From NCBI RefSeq assembly GCF_022637455.1, contig NZ_CP093341.1, forward strand, positions 1 to 64,000: 64,000 nucleotides of DNA, read 5' to 3'. The translations under genes were made by a program, and so were the position numbers. Positions 36,458 to 63,414 of this stretch are shown one piece after another. The DNA is from Lysobacter sp. S4-A87 (GTDB taxonomy: Bacteria > Pseudomonadota > Gammaproteobacteria > Xanthomonadales > Xanthomonadaceae). Below the pieces are notes generated by a model. The model saw nothing but the letters and a program-made list of their open reading frames with translations. It searched no databases and was not told where the DNA came from. Positions within the stretch are counted from its first letter, which is position 1. Every line of letters begins with the position of its first letter.

Positions 36458-37347
36458 GAGGCCGCGAGTGCCTTGCCGACCCGGCTGCCTGTCTCGCGTC
36501 CGAGCAGGGCGGCGAGCCAGCGGCCGGTTTCGGCCAGCGCCGGCAGGTCCACGCCGGTCTCGATGCCCAGGCCGTGCAGCATGTAGACGACATCCTCGGT
36601 CGCGACGTTGCCGCTGGCGCCCTTCGCATAAGGGCAGCCGCCGGTTCCGGACACGGCCGAATCGACCACCGCCACGCCTTCCTCGAGGCAGGCGAGGATG
36701 TTGGCCAACGCCTGGCCGTAGGTGTCGTGGAAGTGCACGGCCAGCGCGCCAATGGGCACTTCCTGCGCCACCGCCAGCAGCATCGCCCGCGCCTTGCCGG
36801 GCGTACCGATGCCGATCGTGTCGCCCAGCGAGACTTCGTAACAGCCCATCTCATGCAGCGCCCGCGCCACGCGCACCACGTCGGCCAGCGGAACTTCGCC
36901 CTGATAGGGGCAGCCGAGCACGGTGGAGACGTAACCGCGCACGGCAACACCATCGGCACGCGCACGTTCCATCACAGGGAGGAAGCGCTGCAGCGATTCA
37001 TCGATGCCGGCGTTGATGTTGCGGCGATTGAATTCCTCGGAGGCGGCCGTGAACACGGCGATCTCGTCGACGCCGGCGCTGCGCGCACGGGCGTAGCCCT
37101 GTTCGTTCGGCACCAGCACCAGATAGCGCACGCCGGGGCGGCGATGGATGCCGGCCAGCACCTCGGCCGCGTCGGCCAGCTGCGGCACCCACTTGGGGCT
37201 GACGAAGCTGGTGGCTTCGATACTGCGCAGCCCCGTCGCCGAGAGCCGATCGATCAGTTCGATCTTGTCGGCGGTGGCGACATTGGTTTTCTCGTTCTGC
37301 AGGCCGTCGCGCGGCCCGACTTCAACGATGCGGACCGAGCGCTTCAT
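36454..37347 (-). CDS. liuE: Hydroxymethylglutaryl-CoA lyase
   Basis: 297 residues of the HMGL/DRE-TIM family: VEVGPRDGLQNEK (metal/substrate Asp, Arg), SFVSPKWVPQLAD, LGDTIGIGTPGKA, HFHDTYGQALAN (metal His) and the catalytic GCPYAKGASGNVATED cysteine loop near the C-terminus. It splits HMG-CoA into acetoacetate and acetyl-CoA, the last step of leucine breakdown. Its stop overlaps the downstream GGDEF-EAL gene, and its start overlaps liuD by 4 nt, giving a tightly coupled liuD-liuE-signalling unit. Confidence 0.95.
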   Translation of the reverse strand: MKRSVRIVEVGPRDGLQNEKTNVATADKIELIDRLSATGLRSIEATSFVSPKWVPQLADAAEVLAGIHRRPGVRYLVLVPNEQGYARARSAGVDEIAVFTAASEEFNRRNINAGIDESLQRFLPVMERARADGVAVRGYVSTVLGCPYQGEVPLADVVRVARALHEMGCYEVSLGDTIGIGTPGKARAMLLAVAQEVPIGALAVHFHDTYGQALANILACLEEGVAVVDSAVSGTGGCPYAKGASGNVATEDVVYMLHGLGIETGVDLPALAETGRWLAALLGRETGSRVGKALAAS

Positions 37348-39404
37348 GACGCCAGCGCCACCAGCACGGCGTCGGCCTCGACGAAGTCGCCGGCGGCCGC
37401 ACGCACTTCGGCGACGGTGCCGGCGCGTGGCGCCTTCAGGCTCAACTCCATCTTCATCGCCTCGATCACCATCAGCTCCTGTCCGGCTTCGACCTCGTCG
37501 CCAGGTGCGGCCTTGACCAGCACCACCCGGCCGGGCATCGGCGCGAGCAACTGGTTGCCGGCGCCCACGCCACTGCTGCGTTCCGGACGATACATCGGCA
37601 CCGCCTGAAGGCGGAGTCGACGTCCGCCGTCATGGACGACGATCCGCTGTCCGCCACCGTCCCGCGGCATGTCCGTGGAGGCCGCATCCATAGCCAACGT
37701 AAAGCGGCGGCCGCGTCCGTCAATGCGCAGGCTGAGGGCGTCGCCGGCCTCGCTGCGGGCGCCTTCGACGGTATGAATCCGGTCGGCGTGCTCGATCCGG
37801 TAGCTGCCATTGCTGCCCTGGGCATGCAGCTCCAGGCGTTGCTCGCCCTGCAGGAAGGCCAGGCTGCGGCGGCTGCCGTGGCCCAGGCGCCAGCCGTCGG
37901 CGATCGCCCATGGCGAGGACGGGTCGGCGGAGACGCCGGCGCGCTCCAGGCTGCTGCGCTCCTGGGCCAGCAGCTGCGCGGTGGCGGCGGCCAGCAGCAG
38001 GTCCTGGTCGGCGCCGTCGCTGGCTGCCTGGGTGCCTGCCTGGCTGCCGGCCTGCACGAATTCGTCCAGGTGGCGGTCGAGGTAGCCGGTGTCGATGCGG
38101 CCTTCGACGACGACCGGGTGGCGCACCAGTCGTTCGAGGAACTCGATGTTGGACTTCGGCCCGGCGATGTCGCACTTGGCCAGCGCGGCCCGCAGGCGGG
38201 CGAGGGCGGCCGGACGGTCGGTGTCGTAAACGATGAGCTTGGCGATCATCGGGTCGTAGAAGATCGTGACGGTGTCGCCCTCGATCACGCCCGAGTCGAT
38301 GCGCACATGGTCATCGGCCGCGGGCAGTCGCAGGCGTTCGAGGCGACCGGAGCCGGGCAAAAAACCGGCGTCGGGATCTTCGGCGTACAGGCGCACTTCG
38401 ATGGCGTGGCCGCGCTGGGCGATCTGGTCCTGCGCCAGTGGCAGTGCATCGCCGGCAGCGACGCGCAGTTGCCATTCGACCAGGTCCAGTCCGGTGACGA
38501 ACTCGGTGACCGGATGCTCGACCTGCAGGCGGGTATTGATCTCCATGAAATAGAAATCGCCGTCCTGGCCGACGATGAACTCGACGGTGCCGGCGTTGAC
38601 GTAGTCGATCGCGCGCGCGGCCAGCACCGCGGCCGCGCCCATGGCTTCGCGCAACTGCGGCGAGAGGAACGGCGAGGGCGATTCTTCCAGCACCTTCTGG
38701 TAGCGGCGCTGCGCCGAGCATTCGCGCTCGTTGAGGTGGATGGCGTGGCCGTGGCTGTCGCCGAAGACCTGGATCTCGATATGGCGCGGGCGCTCGACGT
38801 AGCGCTCCAGCAGCACGCGATCGCGACCGAACGCGTTGCGCGCCTCGCGCTGGCAGCTTTCGAGGTTGGCGGCAAACTCCGCGCTGTTGCGGACGATGCG
38901 CATACCCTTGCCGCCGCCGCCGTGCGCGGCCTTGATCATCAGCGGGTATCCGATCGCATCGGCCTCGCGCTGGAGCAGCTCGGGCGACTGGTCTTCGCCG
39001 GTATAGCCGGGAACGACGGGAACACCGGCCGCCTGCATCAGTTCCTTGGCGCCGGCCTTGCTGCCCATCTTGCGCATCGACGCCGCGCGCGGGCCGATGA
39101 AGGCGAGCCCGGCGGCTTCAACCGCGTCGGCGAAGTCGGCGTTTTCGCTGAGGAAGCCGTAGCCGGGATGGATCGCCTGCGCGCCCGACTTCAGCGCGAC
39201 TTCGAGGATCGCATCACCGCGCAGATAGCTCTCGGCCGGACGCGGCCCGCCAATGGGCCACGCTTCATCGGCCAGGCGCACATGCTGCGCGTCCGCATCG
39301 GCCTGCGAGTACACCGCGACGGTGGCGATGCCGAGGCGACGACAGGTACGGATCACGCGGCAGGCAATCTCGCCACGGTTGGCAATCAGGATCTTGTCGA
39401 ACAT
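37344..39404 (-). CDS. liuD: Methylcrotonyl-CoA carboxylase biotin-containing alpha subunit
   Basis: 686 residues: biotin carboxylase (MFDKILIANRGEIACRVIRT; ATP-grasp GGGGKGMRIV; ERECSAQRRYQKVLEESP; FMEINTRLQVEHPVTE) and a C-terminal biotinyl domain with the VIEAMKMEL lysine. The beta subunit is liuB at 44640. ATG 39404 starts the standard N-terminus. Its ribosome binding site, GGGGAGGG read on the minus strand about 8 nt upstream, lies inside a G-rich repeat at 39411-39450, which borders the DUF559 cassette. Methylcrotonyl rather than propionyl/acetyl specificity is inferred from the liu neighbours. Confidence 0.92.
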   Translation of the reverse strand: MFDKILIANRGEIACRVIRTCRRLGIATVAVYSQADADAQHVRLADEAWPIGGPRPAESYLRGDAILEVALKSGAQAIHPGYGFLSENADFADAVEAAGLAFIGPRAASMRKMGSKAGAKELMQAAGVPVVPGYTGEDQSPELLQREADAIGYPLMIKAAHGGGGKGMRIVRNSAEFAANLESCQREARNAFGRDRVLLERYVERPRHIEIQVFGDSHGHAIHLNERECSAQRRYQKVLEESPSPFLSPQLREAMGAAAVLAARAIDYVNAGTVEFIVGQDGDFYFMEINTRLQVEHPVTEFVTGLDLVEWQLRVAAGDALPLAQDQIAQRGHAIEVRLYAEDPDAGFLPGSGRLERLRLPAADDHVRIDSGVIEGDTVTIFYDPMIAKLIVYDTDRPAALARLRAALAKCDIAGPKSNIEFLERLVRHPVVVEGRIDTGYLDRHLDEFVQAGSQAGTQAASDGADQDLLLAAATAQLLAQERSSLERAGVSADPSSPWAIADGWRLGHGSRRSLAFLQGEQRLELHAQGSNGSYRIEHADRIHTVEGARSEAGDALSLRIDGRGRRFTLAMDAASTDMPRDGGGQRIVVHDGGRRLRLQAVPMYRPERSSGVGAGNQLLAPMPGRVVLVKAAPGDEVEAGQELMVIEAMKMELSLKAPRAGTVAEVRAAAGDFVEADAVLVALAS

Positions 39405-39410
39405 GTTCTT

Positions 39411-39450
39411 AGCCCTCCCCTTCAAGGGGAGGGTTGGGAGGGGATGGGTT
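39411..39450. repeat. G-rich repeat family B, copy 1 (liuD leader)
   Basis: CCCTCCCCTTCAAGGGGAGG followed by GTTGGGAGGGGATGGGTT. On the minus strand it provides the liuD Shine-Dalgarno sequence. Confidence 0.8.
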
Positions 39451-39496
39451 GAGTCGCGTGTGCGTTTCGCCAATCACTTCAAACACTCCTGTTTTA

Positions 39497-39534
39497 AGCC
39501 CTCCCTTTCAGGGGAGGGTTGGGAGGGGATGGGT
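39497..39534. repeat. G-rich repeat family B, copy 2 (overlaps the DUF559 3' end)
   Basis: Same orientation as copy 1 (CCCTCCCTTTCAGGGGAGG, then GTTGGGAGGGGATGGGTT). The final codons and stop of the nuclease gene read through it (THPLPTLP). Confidence 0.8.
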
Positions 39535-39894
39535 TTCCAGCCGCCGCAGCGCATCCAGAATCACCTCGACGAGCCCCTCGATATTCTCGAATACTTCGTT
39601 GTTCCAGAATCTCAGTACCACGAATCCCGCGCGTTCCAGCCGCTGTGTTCGGTCCAGGTCGTAGGCGGCCTGATCCGCGTGCTGGCCGCCGTCGAGTTCG
39701 ATCACCAGCTTCCGCTCCAGGCAGGCGAAATCGAGTATGAAGCCGCCGAACGGATGCTGCCTCCTGAACTTGCAGCCCTGCAGTTGTCGATTCCTCAGAT
39801 GTCGCCAGAGATGGCGCTCCGCATCCGTGGAGTCGTTTCGCAACTTGCGCGGACGTTGCTCGCGGGTGATCTTCTTGTTTGTTTGTCCTTTCAT
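39508..39894 (-). CDS. DUF559 endonuclease-domain protein (Vsr-like fold)
   Basis: 128 residues. The core reads AERHLWRHLRNRQLQGCKFRRQHPFGGFILDFACLERKLVIELDGGQHADQ (split here over the PD-(D/E)xK-like region): FILDFAC, LVIELDGGQH and VVLRFWNNEVFENIEGL are DUF559 signatures. ATG 39894 has GGAGGAG just upstream. Family members resemble very-short-patch repair nucleases, but their role is unknown. It sits between liuC and liuD, bracketed by inverted copies of repeat family B, as a probable inserted cassette. Confidence 0.85.
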   Translation of the reverse strand: MKGQTNKKITREQRPRKLRNDSTDAERHLWRHLRNRQLQGCKFRRQHPFGGFILDFACLERKLVIELDGGQHADQAAYDLDRTQRLERAGFVVLRFWNNEVFENIEGLVEVILDALRRLETHPLPTLP

Positions 39895-39929
39895 GGGGCT
39901 CCTCCTTGAGCCTTGCTTGATGGGCATCC

Positions 39930-39971
39930 AACCCATCCCCTCCCATCCCTCCCCTTGAAGGGGAGGGCTTT
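39930..39971. repeat. G-rich repeat family B, copy 3 (inverted)
   Basis: AACCCATCCCCTCCCATCCC then TCCCCTTGAAGGGGAGGGCT, in inverted orientation to copies 1 and 2. It abuts the liuC stop codon and closes the DUF559 cassette. Confidence 0.8.
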
Positions 39972-40752
39972 ACAGCGCCCAGCGCGGCTTGCGCTTTTCC
40001 AGGAACGCGCCCAGGCCTTCCTGGCCTTCGCTCGATACTCGCAGACCGGCGATGAGCGCGGCATTGTCGGCGTCGAGGCGATCGCGGTCGCGTTCGCCGG
40101 TGACGCGGCGGACCAGGGTCTTGGCCGTGGCCGAGGCCACGGGGCCGGCCTTCAGCAGCAGGTCGACCTGTCGCTGCACCGCCTGGTCGAGCTCGCCGGC
40201 CGGGACGACCTGGTGGACCAGGCCGATCTGCAGGGCGACGTCGGCAGCAAAGATCTCGGCGGTGGCGAACCAGCGCCGCGCCTGGCGCGATCCGATGGCT
40301 TCGATCACGTAGGGGGAGATCACCGCCGGCAGCAGGCCCAGCTTGCTCTCGGTCAGGCCGAACTTGGCCTCGGGCGTCGCGATGGCGATGTCGCAGCAGG
40401 CCACCAGGCCGACGCCGCCGCCGAACGCGGCACCGTGCACGCGGGCGATGGTGGGCTTGGGCAACTCGTCGAGGGTGCGCATCAGGCGGGCGAGGGCGAG
40501 CGCATCGGCACGGTTTTCGGCTTCGCCGGCCGCGGCCATGCCGCGCATCCAGTTGAGGTCGGCCCCGGCCGAGAAAGAAGCGCCTTCACCCTCCAGCACG
40601 ACCACCCGTACGCTGTCGTCGGACGCCACCGCTTCCAGCGCACCCGTCAGCGCGGCGATCACCATCGCGTCGAAGGCGTTGTGCAGGTCGGGTCGGTTCA
40701 GGCGCAGGCGGGCGACGGCCCCTTCGCGCACGTTCAGCAGGGGATGGGTCAT
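39970..40752 (-). CDS. liuC: Enoyl-CoA hydratase, likely 3-methylglutaconyl-CoA hydratase
   Basis: 260 residues of the crotonase fold: FSAGADLNWM (oxyanion hole), ARVHGAAFGGGVGLVACCDIAIA, FGLTESKLGLLPAVISPYV. The KLGLLP segment with its glutamate fits the methylglutaconyl-CoA hydratase group (LiuC), which adds water to yield HMG-CoA. ATG 40752 is used; the frame continues upstream but antisense to feoA. It precedes liuD in transcription order, separated by the DUF559 cassette. Its C-terminus EKRKPRWAL is common in this family. Confidence 0.92.
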   Translation of the reverse strand: MTHPLLNVREGAVARLRLNRPDLHNAFDAMVIAALTGALEAVASDDSVRVVVLEGEGASFSAGADLNWMRGMAAAGEAENRADALALARLMRTLDELPKPTIARVHGAAFGGGVGLVACCDIAIATPEAKFGLTESKLGLLPAVISPYVIEAIGSRQARRWFATAEIFAADVALQIGLVHQVVPAGELDQAVQRQVDLLLKAGPVASATAKTLVRRVTGERDRDRLDADNAALIAGLRVSSEGQEGLGAFLEKRKPRWAL

Positions 40753-63374: not shown

Positions 63375-63414
63375 GGCCATTGCTCCGACGGCCCTCACCC
63401 CAACCCCTCTCCCG

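Follow-up and report, generated by a model that had tools for sequence, protein, structure and literature searches.

A DUF559 nuclease gene between inverted REP-like repeats at a fixed operon junction has the marks of a homing-type cassette

Bacterial genomes commonly contain palindromic repeats between their genes, and terminal inverted repeats around a gene, together with gene-less inverted pairs, are familiar from MITEs and TIR-bounded insertion sequences. In the REPtron, as the available portion of the source describes it, the gene for a RAYT transposase is flanked by REPs of the GTAG class and further REPs are dispersed; RAYT transposases are tied to this class, and a CGTC class is apparently without a dedicated transposase (PMC3733652). 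Homing enzymes of the EDxHD type have also been described, including I-Bth0305I with its extended DNA-binding regions (PMC3943268), a DUF559 gene has been placed in the EDxHD homing family (PMC9403480), and a Vsr-like role in mismatch repair has been proposed for VsrA, a DUF559 protein of Caulobacter (PMC12907096), in each case according to the accessible part of the paper. Within the openly accessible part of the literature we found no description of DUF559 genes paired with flanking repeats, and among the matches listed for the repeat sequence in the text of papers there were none about these repeats by title.

The stretch analysed here (the window) covers 64,000 nucleotides of the Lysobacter sp. 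S4-A87 genome, in which a DUF559 nuclease gene lies inside the liuC–liuD junction (Table 1). The initial annotation of this DNA placed the gene between inverted repeats of about 40 bp, and this was borne out: the two outer copies, 1 and 3, are 41 nt each, are 98% complementary at a spacing of 477 nt, and are joined by a third copy in direct orientation. Its readings of a nuclease stop codon within a repeat, a liuC stop abutting one and a liuD Shine-Dalgarno sequence supplied by another can all be seen in the sequence. Each of the three copies has a G-run tail behind a hairpin whose folding energy as DNA is -8.3 to -10.6 kcal/mol (z -2.1 to -2.5), and all three contain a four-G-run motif. The window has seven motifs of this kind, and repeats of this class account for four of them, at the three copies and at the solo type-D repeat. 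A 16-nt core pattern, allowing up to three mismatches, matched the window eight times, six of these at the three repeat copies, against a shuffle expectation of 0.52, and a pattern for the repeat tail matched three times against 0.31 expected. The open reading frame of the nuclease was listed from 39936, but translation more likely starts at 39892-39894, an ATG preceded by AAGGAGG, where a sequence M-x-G-Q-T-N is common to several homologues. Comparison with the relative G149 indicates that an old liuD leader (GGAGTG...) persists upstream of copy 1, between the two direct copies, from which it seems that copy 1 took over as the liuD ribosome-binding site in the window.

Table 1 Features of the nuclease locus and a further solo repeat in the window
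Feature	Positions	Strand	Basis and remarks
liuD-like gene (methylcrotonyl-CoA carboxylase alpha subunit)	37344..39404	-	Pfam Biotin_carb_N, BT_MCC_alpha; operon neighbour downstream of nuclease; ATG at 39402-39404
GGGGAGGG, likely liuD Shine-Dalgarno, within left repeat	39413..39420	-	sequence reading; 8 nt from ATG
Repeat copy 1: hairpin CCCTCCCCTTCAAGGGGAGGG and G-run tail, tail toward nuclease	39411..39451	+	repeat comparison, folding
Leader relic of former liuD (AGGAGTGTTTGAAGTG), severed from liuD by copy 1	39475..39490	-	by-eye comparison with G149 empty allele (L037)
Repeat copy 2, direct, 86% to copy 1	39494..39535	+	repeat comparison; holds nuclease stop codon (39508-39510)
DUF559 nuclease gene, 128 aa from likelier start	39508..39894	-	Pfam, alignments, predicted fold
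AAGGAGG, likely nuclease Shine-Dalgarno	39901..39907	-	sequence reading
Repeat copy 3, inverted relative to copies 1 and 2	39929..39969	-	repeat comparison; abuts liuC stop (39970-39972)
liuC-like gene (enoyl-CoA hydratase/isomerase)	39970..40752	-	Pfam ECH_1; operon neighbour upstream of nuclease
Solo repeat tail, type D, unlike resident type-A cassette	63392..63413	-	1 of 23 type-D copies in genome

The nuclease matches DUF559 (PF04480) with an E-value of 5e-42 and 142.5 bits against a curated cut-off of 20.6, its only other Pfam match, to MTES_1575, being sub-threshold. Residues D69, E80, D82 and H86 (numbered from 39936) are invariant in two alignments, and Q85 is invariant in the first. 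When a predicted model (mean pLDDT 76.6; 65 residues at 90 or above) was searched with Foldseek, NGO0050 (3hrl) ranked first and the catalytic domain of I-Bth0305I second (E 3.7e-4), Vsr giving an E-value of 0.14; phmmer matched 3hrl only. The predicted fold is Vsr/EDxHD-like and matches that of the homing endonuclease I-Bth0305I, in keeping with the homing-type nuclease proposed at the outset, since the nearest characterised fold is that of a homing endonuclease. Pfam and NCBIfam gave no transposase domain in the nuclease, and an HUH/tyrosine transposase of the IS200/IS605 type was absent by Pfam, the nearest folds being 3hrl and I-Bth0305I. There was no strong PADLOC match to anti-phage defence (best E 0.0021, to part of Hhe), and a reading as a defence system was set aside on these weak matches; a known RNA family was also rejected, both of its two matches falling under the gathering score. 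DUF559 records numbered four in a phage search and 44 in a plasmid search, and 37 contigs of a viral collection (L276-L312) encode DUF559 relatives.

The arrangement seen in the window recurs widely. Our family set comprised 149 genomes, 82 of them with DUF559 among the matches listed, and association was measured in a sample of 130 loci with 131 DUF559 genes, a part of all matches, as an inverted repeat of score at least 18 joining the 250-bp flanks of the gene. Inverted, hairpin-forming, G-rich flanking repeats were found at 89 of the 131 genes, as against one of 805 control intervals from the same loci, and a comparison with other genes (at least 600 bp away, in loci of at least 5 kb) gave 64/100 for DUF559 and 5/260 for controls (p 1e-38), so that chance repeats and general repeat richness are excluded by both kinds of control. 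In a wider set of named genomes (the best 80 among the matches listed, minus six with short flanks), whose record titles include Chloroflexi, Nitrospirae, Gastranaerophilales, Deltaproteobacteria and Rickettsiales, 51 of 74 DUF559 genes had a flanking inverted repeat, compared with one of 354 controls. Other repeat-bordered DUF559 genes, which the initial annotation had looked to as a check, are therefore frequent in both sets. No inverted repeat reached the threshold at 42 of the family genes, some of which have one-sided copies, or at 23 genes of the wider set. Judged from the left arm, the tail points toward the gene in 72 of the 89 cases and away from it in two, with 15 unclear.

The flanking repeats share a common plan, a C-run/G-run hairpin with a G-run tail, and differ in sequence; we sorted them into types by patterns of our own. 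On a tree of the 131 nucleases, many of whose forks lack resolution because the alignment is short, these types require 27 label changes, compared with 69.7 when shuffled, and none of 200 shuffles was as low, which indicates that repeat type is one that follows nuclease clade. The 12 type-A nuclease genes form a single clade (support 100/97) that spans many genera, and one genome may carry several nucleases with different repeats, as does G125 with types A, D and E. At one locus (L156) two DUF559 genes that are 97% identical lie in tandem, each with type-G repeats, and at another (L012) three similar units, each about 96 bp long and with one repeat, stand head to tail 5' of the nuclease.

Grouping DUF559 loci by homology of their flanks gave 36 groups, of which 21 were singletons. 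The largest occupied sucD–nadE (31 genes, several repeat types) and hppD–hmgA (28 genes, all type D); others were liuC–liuD (11 loci in the group, type A), a junction between an AMP-ligase and a 3beta-HSD-like gene (nine genes, eight of type B), a second type-B site (five genes) and aconitase–prpF (five genes). Neighbouring domains were assigned by Pfam at all of these except the second type-B site, and where the names given to junction neighbours go beyond domain matches they are our presumption. Neighbours and nuclease are co-directional at five sites (one representative each). Eleven of the 12 type-A loci fall into one group and the twelfth lies at the same junction, so the clade occupies liuC–liuD in 12/12 genomes, and 61 of 63 nuclease pairs at least 70% identical have both flanks in common. 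Site and clade are not in one-to-one correspondence: nucleases of several repeat types sit at sucD–nadE, and type-B genes are found at two sites. Free transposition of the cassette is excluded by the 61 common flanks and by the grouping of loci by site. The mobile unit first envisaged is accordingly kept in part: horizontal spread is upheld (see below), and free hopping is not, because the genes of one clade occupy fixed junctions across genera, and the unit behaves like a site-fixed, homing-type cassette with dispersed REP-like repeats.

Filled and empty versions of these sites were compared at two junctions. For liuC–liuD we surveyed 38 junctions, drawn from the genus of the window, chosen genomes and the type-A loci, of which 14 were filled, 21 unfilled and three unreadable. 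All 14 filled junctions have repeats and none of the 21 unfilled ones matched any repeat pattern scanned, as expected if, as had been claimed, nuclease and ends form one unit. Within the genus, three of 12 junctions are filled (those of G150 and G151 in addition to the window's species), one has a short spacer, seven hold one other gene, presumably glyoxalase-like from its sequence, and one holds another, presumably cupin-like. The situation that the initial annotation named as contrary to its reading, a nuclease present at the site in all relatives and without repeats, is thus not the one observed. Its suggestion that the edge of the cassette carries a ribosome-binding site holds for the window and in part for other alleles: the distance from the end of GGGGAGGG to the start of liuD is 8-9 nt in five of the 14 filled alleles and 15-16 nt in two, and in seven the motif is farther away or absent. 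By eye, no target-site duplication was noticed at the filled junctions, whose spacers have diverged, and the diverged spacer in the empty allele of G149 blurs the exact border of the cassette. In G149 (L037), liuD seems to begin with TTG behind GGAG; most relatives have ATG. Stretches of 400 kb from G006 and G058 are not syntenic and so are uninformative on empty sites.

At hppD–hmgA, five of 20 further chosen genomes are filled and 15 are without the gene (L405, L406 and L407 were judged by eye). Eight of these 15 still show traces, either a solo repeat or a remnant of the nuclease, whereas seven show neither (L413, one of the seven, being poorly readable); one (L404) retains an apparent piece of the DUF559 C-terminus with one repeat, as in a decaying cassette. 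In the window genome itself this junction (L407; G000:C1 near 3115012) holds a solo type-D repeat where many relatives have a type-D cassette, and the solo repeat is likely to be the scar of a lost type-D nuclease, a loss that would explain the 23 type-D copies in this genome.

The history of the nuclease differs from that of its neighbours. Tree tests covered 11 of 12 rows for liuC–liuD (L014 dropped) and 28/28 for hppD–hmgA, and at both junctions the tree obtained from the flanking proteins is rejected by the nuclease data (AU p 3e-4 and 6e-39, respectively); the reverse test also rejects, and with five long branches dropped (23 rows) the AU p is 7e-29. The congeners at L151 and L160 are 88-100% identical upstream of the nuclease and 75-96% identical downstream of it; within the nuclease identity is 57-85%, and it rises to 95% at the right repeat. 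Nineteen pairs from the same site, which are non-independent, have at least 88% identity in both flanks; nuclease identity drops by at least 15 points in ten of them and is within five points or above in seven. Relaxed, faster evolution of the nuclease in place of replacement is excluded by dS for 11 of 18 pairs, in which nuclease dS is 0.72-1.96 against a flank dS of 0.07-0.58, with dN below dS in each (values of dS near saturation being rough). The dS contrast is small in five of the 18 pairs and reversed in L154/L160 and L118/L125, as after recent transfer. These comparisons indicate that the nuclease is exchanged horizontally at fixed sites, independently of its flanks; they do not separate homing from a transfer brought about by ordinary recombination within the conserved neighbours.

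Repeats of the same types are also found away from nucleases. The window genome (3.89 Mb) has one DUF559 match, and the full repeat pattern, with up to three mismatches, occurs there at five places. The cassette accounts for two of these; of the other three, two are intergenic singles and one, at 733474, is a gene-less, tails-inward inverted pair. The highest number of type-D copies in a genome of the family, with up to one mismatch allowed, is 165. At least five type-D copies were present in 55 of the 82 genomes with DUF559 among the matches listed, compared with two of the 67 without, and at least one copy in 67 and nine, respectively; on the same basis the mean number was higher in genomes with DUF559 in 12 of 13 mixed genera, a result equalled in 0/10,000 within-genus permutations. 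Type A is present in 20/149 genomes, namely in 12/12 with a type-A nuclease, each of which by our own count has two or more further copies outside the cassette, and in 8/137 others. These results indicate that high numbers of dispersed copies are found mainly in genomes with a DUF559 gene. Six of the eight type-A genomes without an identified type-A nuclease have an unfilled liuC–liuD junction (G021, G065, G099, G105, G129 and G148; read without G024 and G063).

The forms taken by the dispersed copies vary. Among 75 copy clusters in 67 stretches, some from very close species, 44 are single, 11 are tails-inward and two tails-outward pairs, and the rest are tandem or mixed, which refutes the inverted pair as the sole dispersed form. 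Intergenic tandem copies show equal periods, and the same intergenic spot holds different repeat families in different species, including, by eye and among those listed, REPs of the GTAG and CGTC types. The pyrG–kdsA interval (L415-L426) is such a repeat hot spot, with single A repeats, A pairs, F-D pairs or CGTC-type repeats depending on the congener. Two tandem arrays, L375 2245-2663 (period 139-140 bp) and L355 10464-11002 (269 bp), have one type-D repeat per unit, the unit of the latter also containing CGTC-type repeats by eye.

We consider the locus to be a homing-type nuclease cassette with cognate REP-like ends, parallel to the pairing of RAYT and REPs, and give this reading a probability of about 0.6. 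The comparisons above show, at the level of sequence, a unit, cognacy between nuclease and repeat, fixed sites, exchange and decay, and a link between copy number and the presence of a nuclease; cleavage and mobilisation of repeats would be the putative activities behind them. The DUF559 nuclease would bind the hairpin/G-tail repeat and may cut within or next to it, or else at the unoccupied operon junction, upon which repair from a filled copy would carry nuclease and ends across, that is, by homing. In trans, by analogy with what is thought for RAYTs and REPs, it might copy or maintain short repeats elsewhere. The sequences show that the unit is acquired, exchanged between species and lost at a small number of fixed operon junctions, where it may be tolerated because it is placed downstream of a stop codon, between genes that run in the same direction, and because the outer edge of some alleles, including that in the window, would provide a purine-rich ribosome-binding site. 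As judged from sequence, the cassette looks selfish and homing-type, and looks to be seeding short repeats around the genome as well. Several observations count against this explanation: the 42 of 131 family genes and 23 of 74 genes of the wider set without an inverted repeat at the threshold, the type-D copies in nine of 67 genomes without DUF559, the 23 type-D copies of the window genome, which has no type-D nuclease, the type-A doublets at pyrG–kdsA in G105, G148 and G129, genomes without the liuC–liuD cassette, and the imperfect match of site and clade; the diverged spacers, among which no target-site duplication was noticed, and the overlap with ordinary recombination weigh on it as well.

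That the enzyme is instead a domesticated, vertically inherited host gene, which maintains repeats as a RAYT might and is neither selfish nor homing, would account for fixed sites across genera, for dN below dS and for dispersed repeats that track the nuclease, but we regard it as unlikely given the rejection of the flank trees, the 11 of 18 close pairs in which nuclease dS lies well over that of the flanks, the patchy presence in three of 12 congeners, and the remnants and solo repeats left at the site. Remnants and swaps at the site likewise weigh against an element that benefits its host, in which the hairpins would be terminators or RNA stabilisers, the nuclease would serve in Vsr-like repair or defence, and the repeats would reflect regulation; VsrA of Caulobacter is tied to the DNA damage response (PMC12907096, in its accessible part) and the repeat offers a possible Shine-Dalgarno sequence, yet inverted pairs with tails inward surround the gene in 72 of 89 cases, PADLOC matches are weak only, and we hold this account to be very improbable. 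A free-standing homing endonuclease might also have settled in intergenic hot spots whose repeats belong to another system, as bystanders or recombination borders. The predicted EDxHD-like fold and the other repeat families found at the same spots elsewhere are in its favour, but it fits poorly with a repeat type that follows nuclease clade, with the 21/21 unfilled liuC–liuD junctions that are free of repeats and with a copy number that depends on the presence of a nuclease, and by eye the window copies have neither the GTAG nor the CGTC tag (as given in the available portion of PMC3733652); we find it improbable.

A wider form of the preferred reading, the homing-type cassette with cognate ends, is that DUF559 (Vsr/EDxHD-like) nucleases of many bacterial phyla home into fixed operon junctions with hairpin/G-tail ends of their own and spread repeats in trans genome-wide, which would constitute a RAYT-independent class of REP system; we advance this tentatively, as a proposition that falls somewhat short of even odds. 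If true, a great many of the palindromic repeats found between genes would have a dedicated enzyme. A nuclease partner with matched repeats would explain the C/G-run hairpins, whose family here ranges from Xanthomonadaceae to Chloroflexi, would point to a function for DUF559, a widespread family, and would join two fields, those of homing endonucleases and of REP elements. The model is directly testable, with a small nuclease, known repeats and empty sites, and natural allele swaps.

Among known systems, MITEs and TIR-bounded elements resemble the cassette in having terminal inverted repeats around a gene as well as gene-less inverted pairs, and differ from it in that here no transposase domain was found and the sites are fixed; by eye, no target duplication was noticed among the diverged spacers. 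Vsr-type repair endonucleases, including VsrA, share the DUF559 domain and a related fold, although the proposed role of VsrA is in mismatch repair and the accessible part of its description mentions no repeat-bounded cassette (PMC12907096). With EDxHD homing endonucleases such as I-Bth0305I the cassette has in common a predicted fold, a fixed site, patchiness, flank-independent transfer and decay; unlike I-Bth0305I, for which extended DNA-binding regions are described in the available part of the paper (PMC3943268), the DUF559 gene encodes about 128 aa, is free-standing between operon genes and is bounded by cognate repeats also found elsewhere in the genome. The REPtron differs in its enzyme, an HUH tyrosine enzyme there and a DUF559 (PD-(D/E)XK/EDxHD-like) enzyme here, in its repeats, which combine a C/G-run hairpin with a G-run tail and, in the three window copies, lack GTAG, and in that the DUF559 gene is laterally swapped at its site. 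As in the REPtron, however, a small nuclease gene stands between inverted palindromic repeats, and related repeats are dispersed between genes as singles, inverted pairs and tandem groups.
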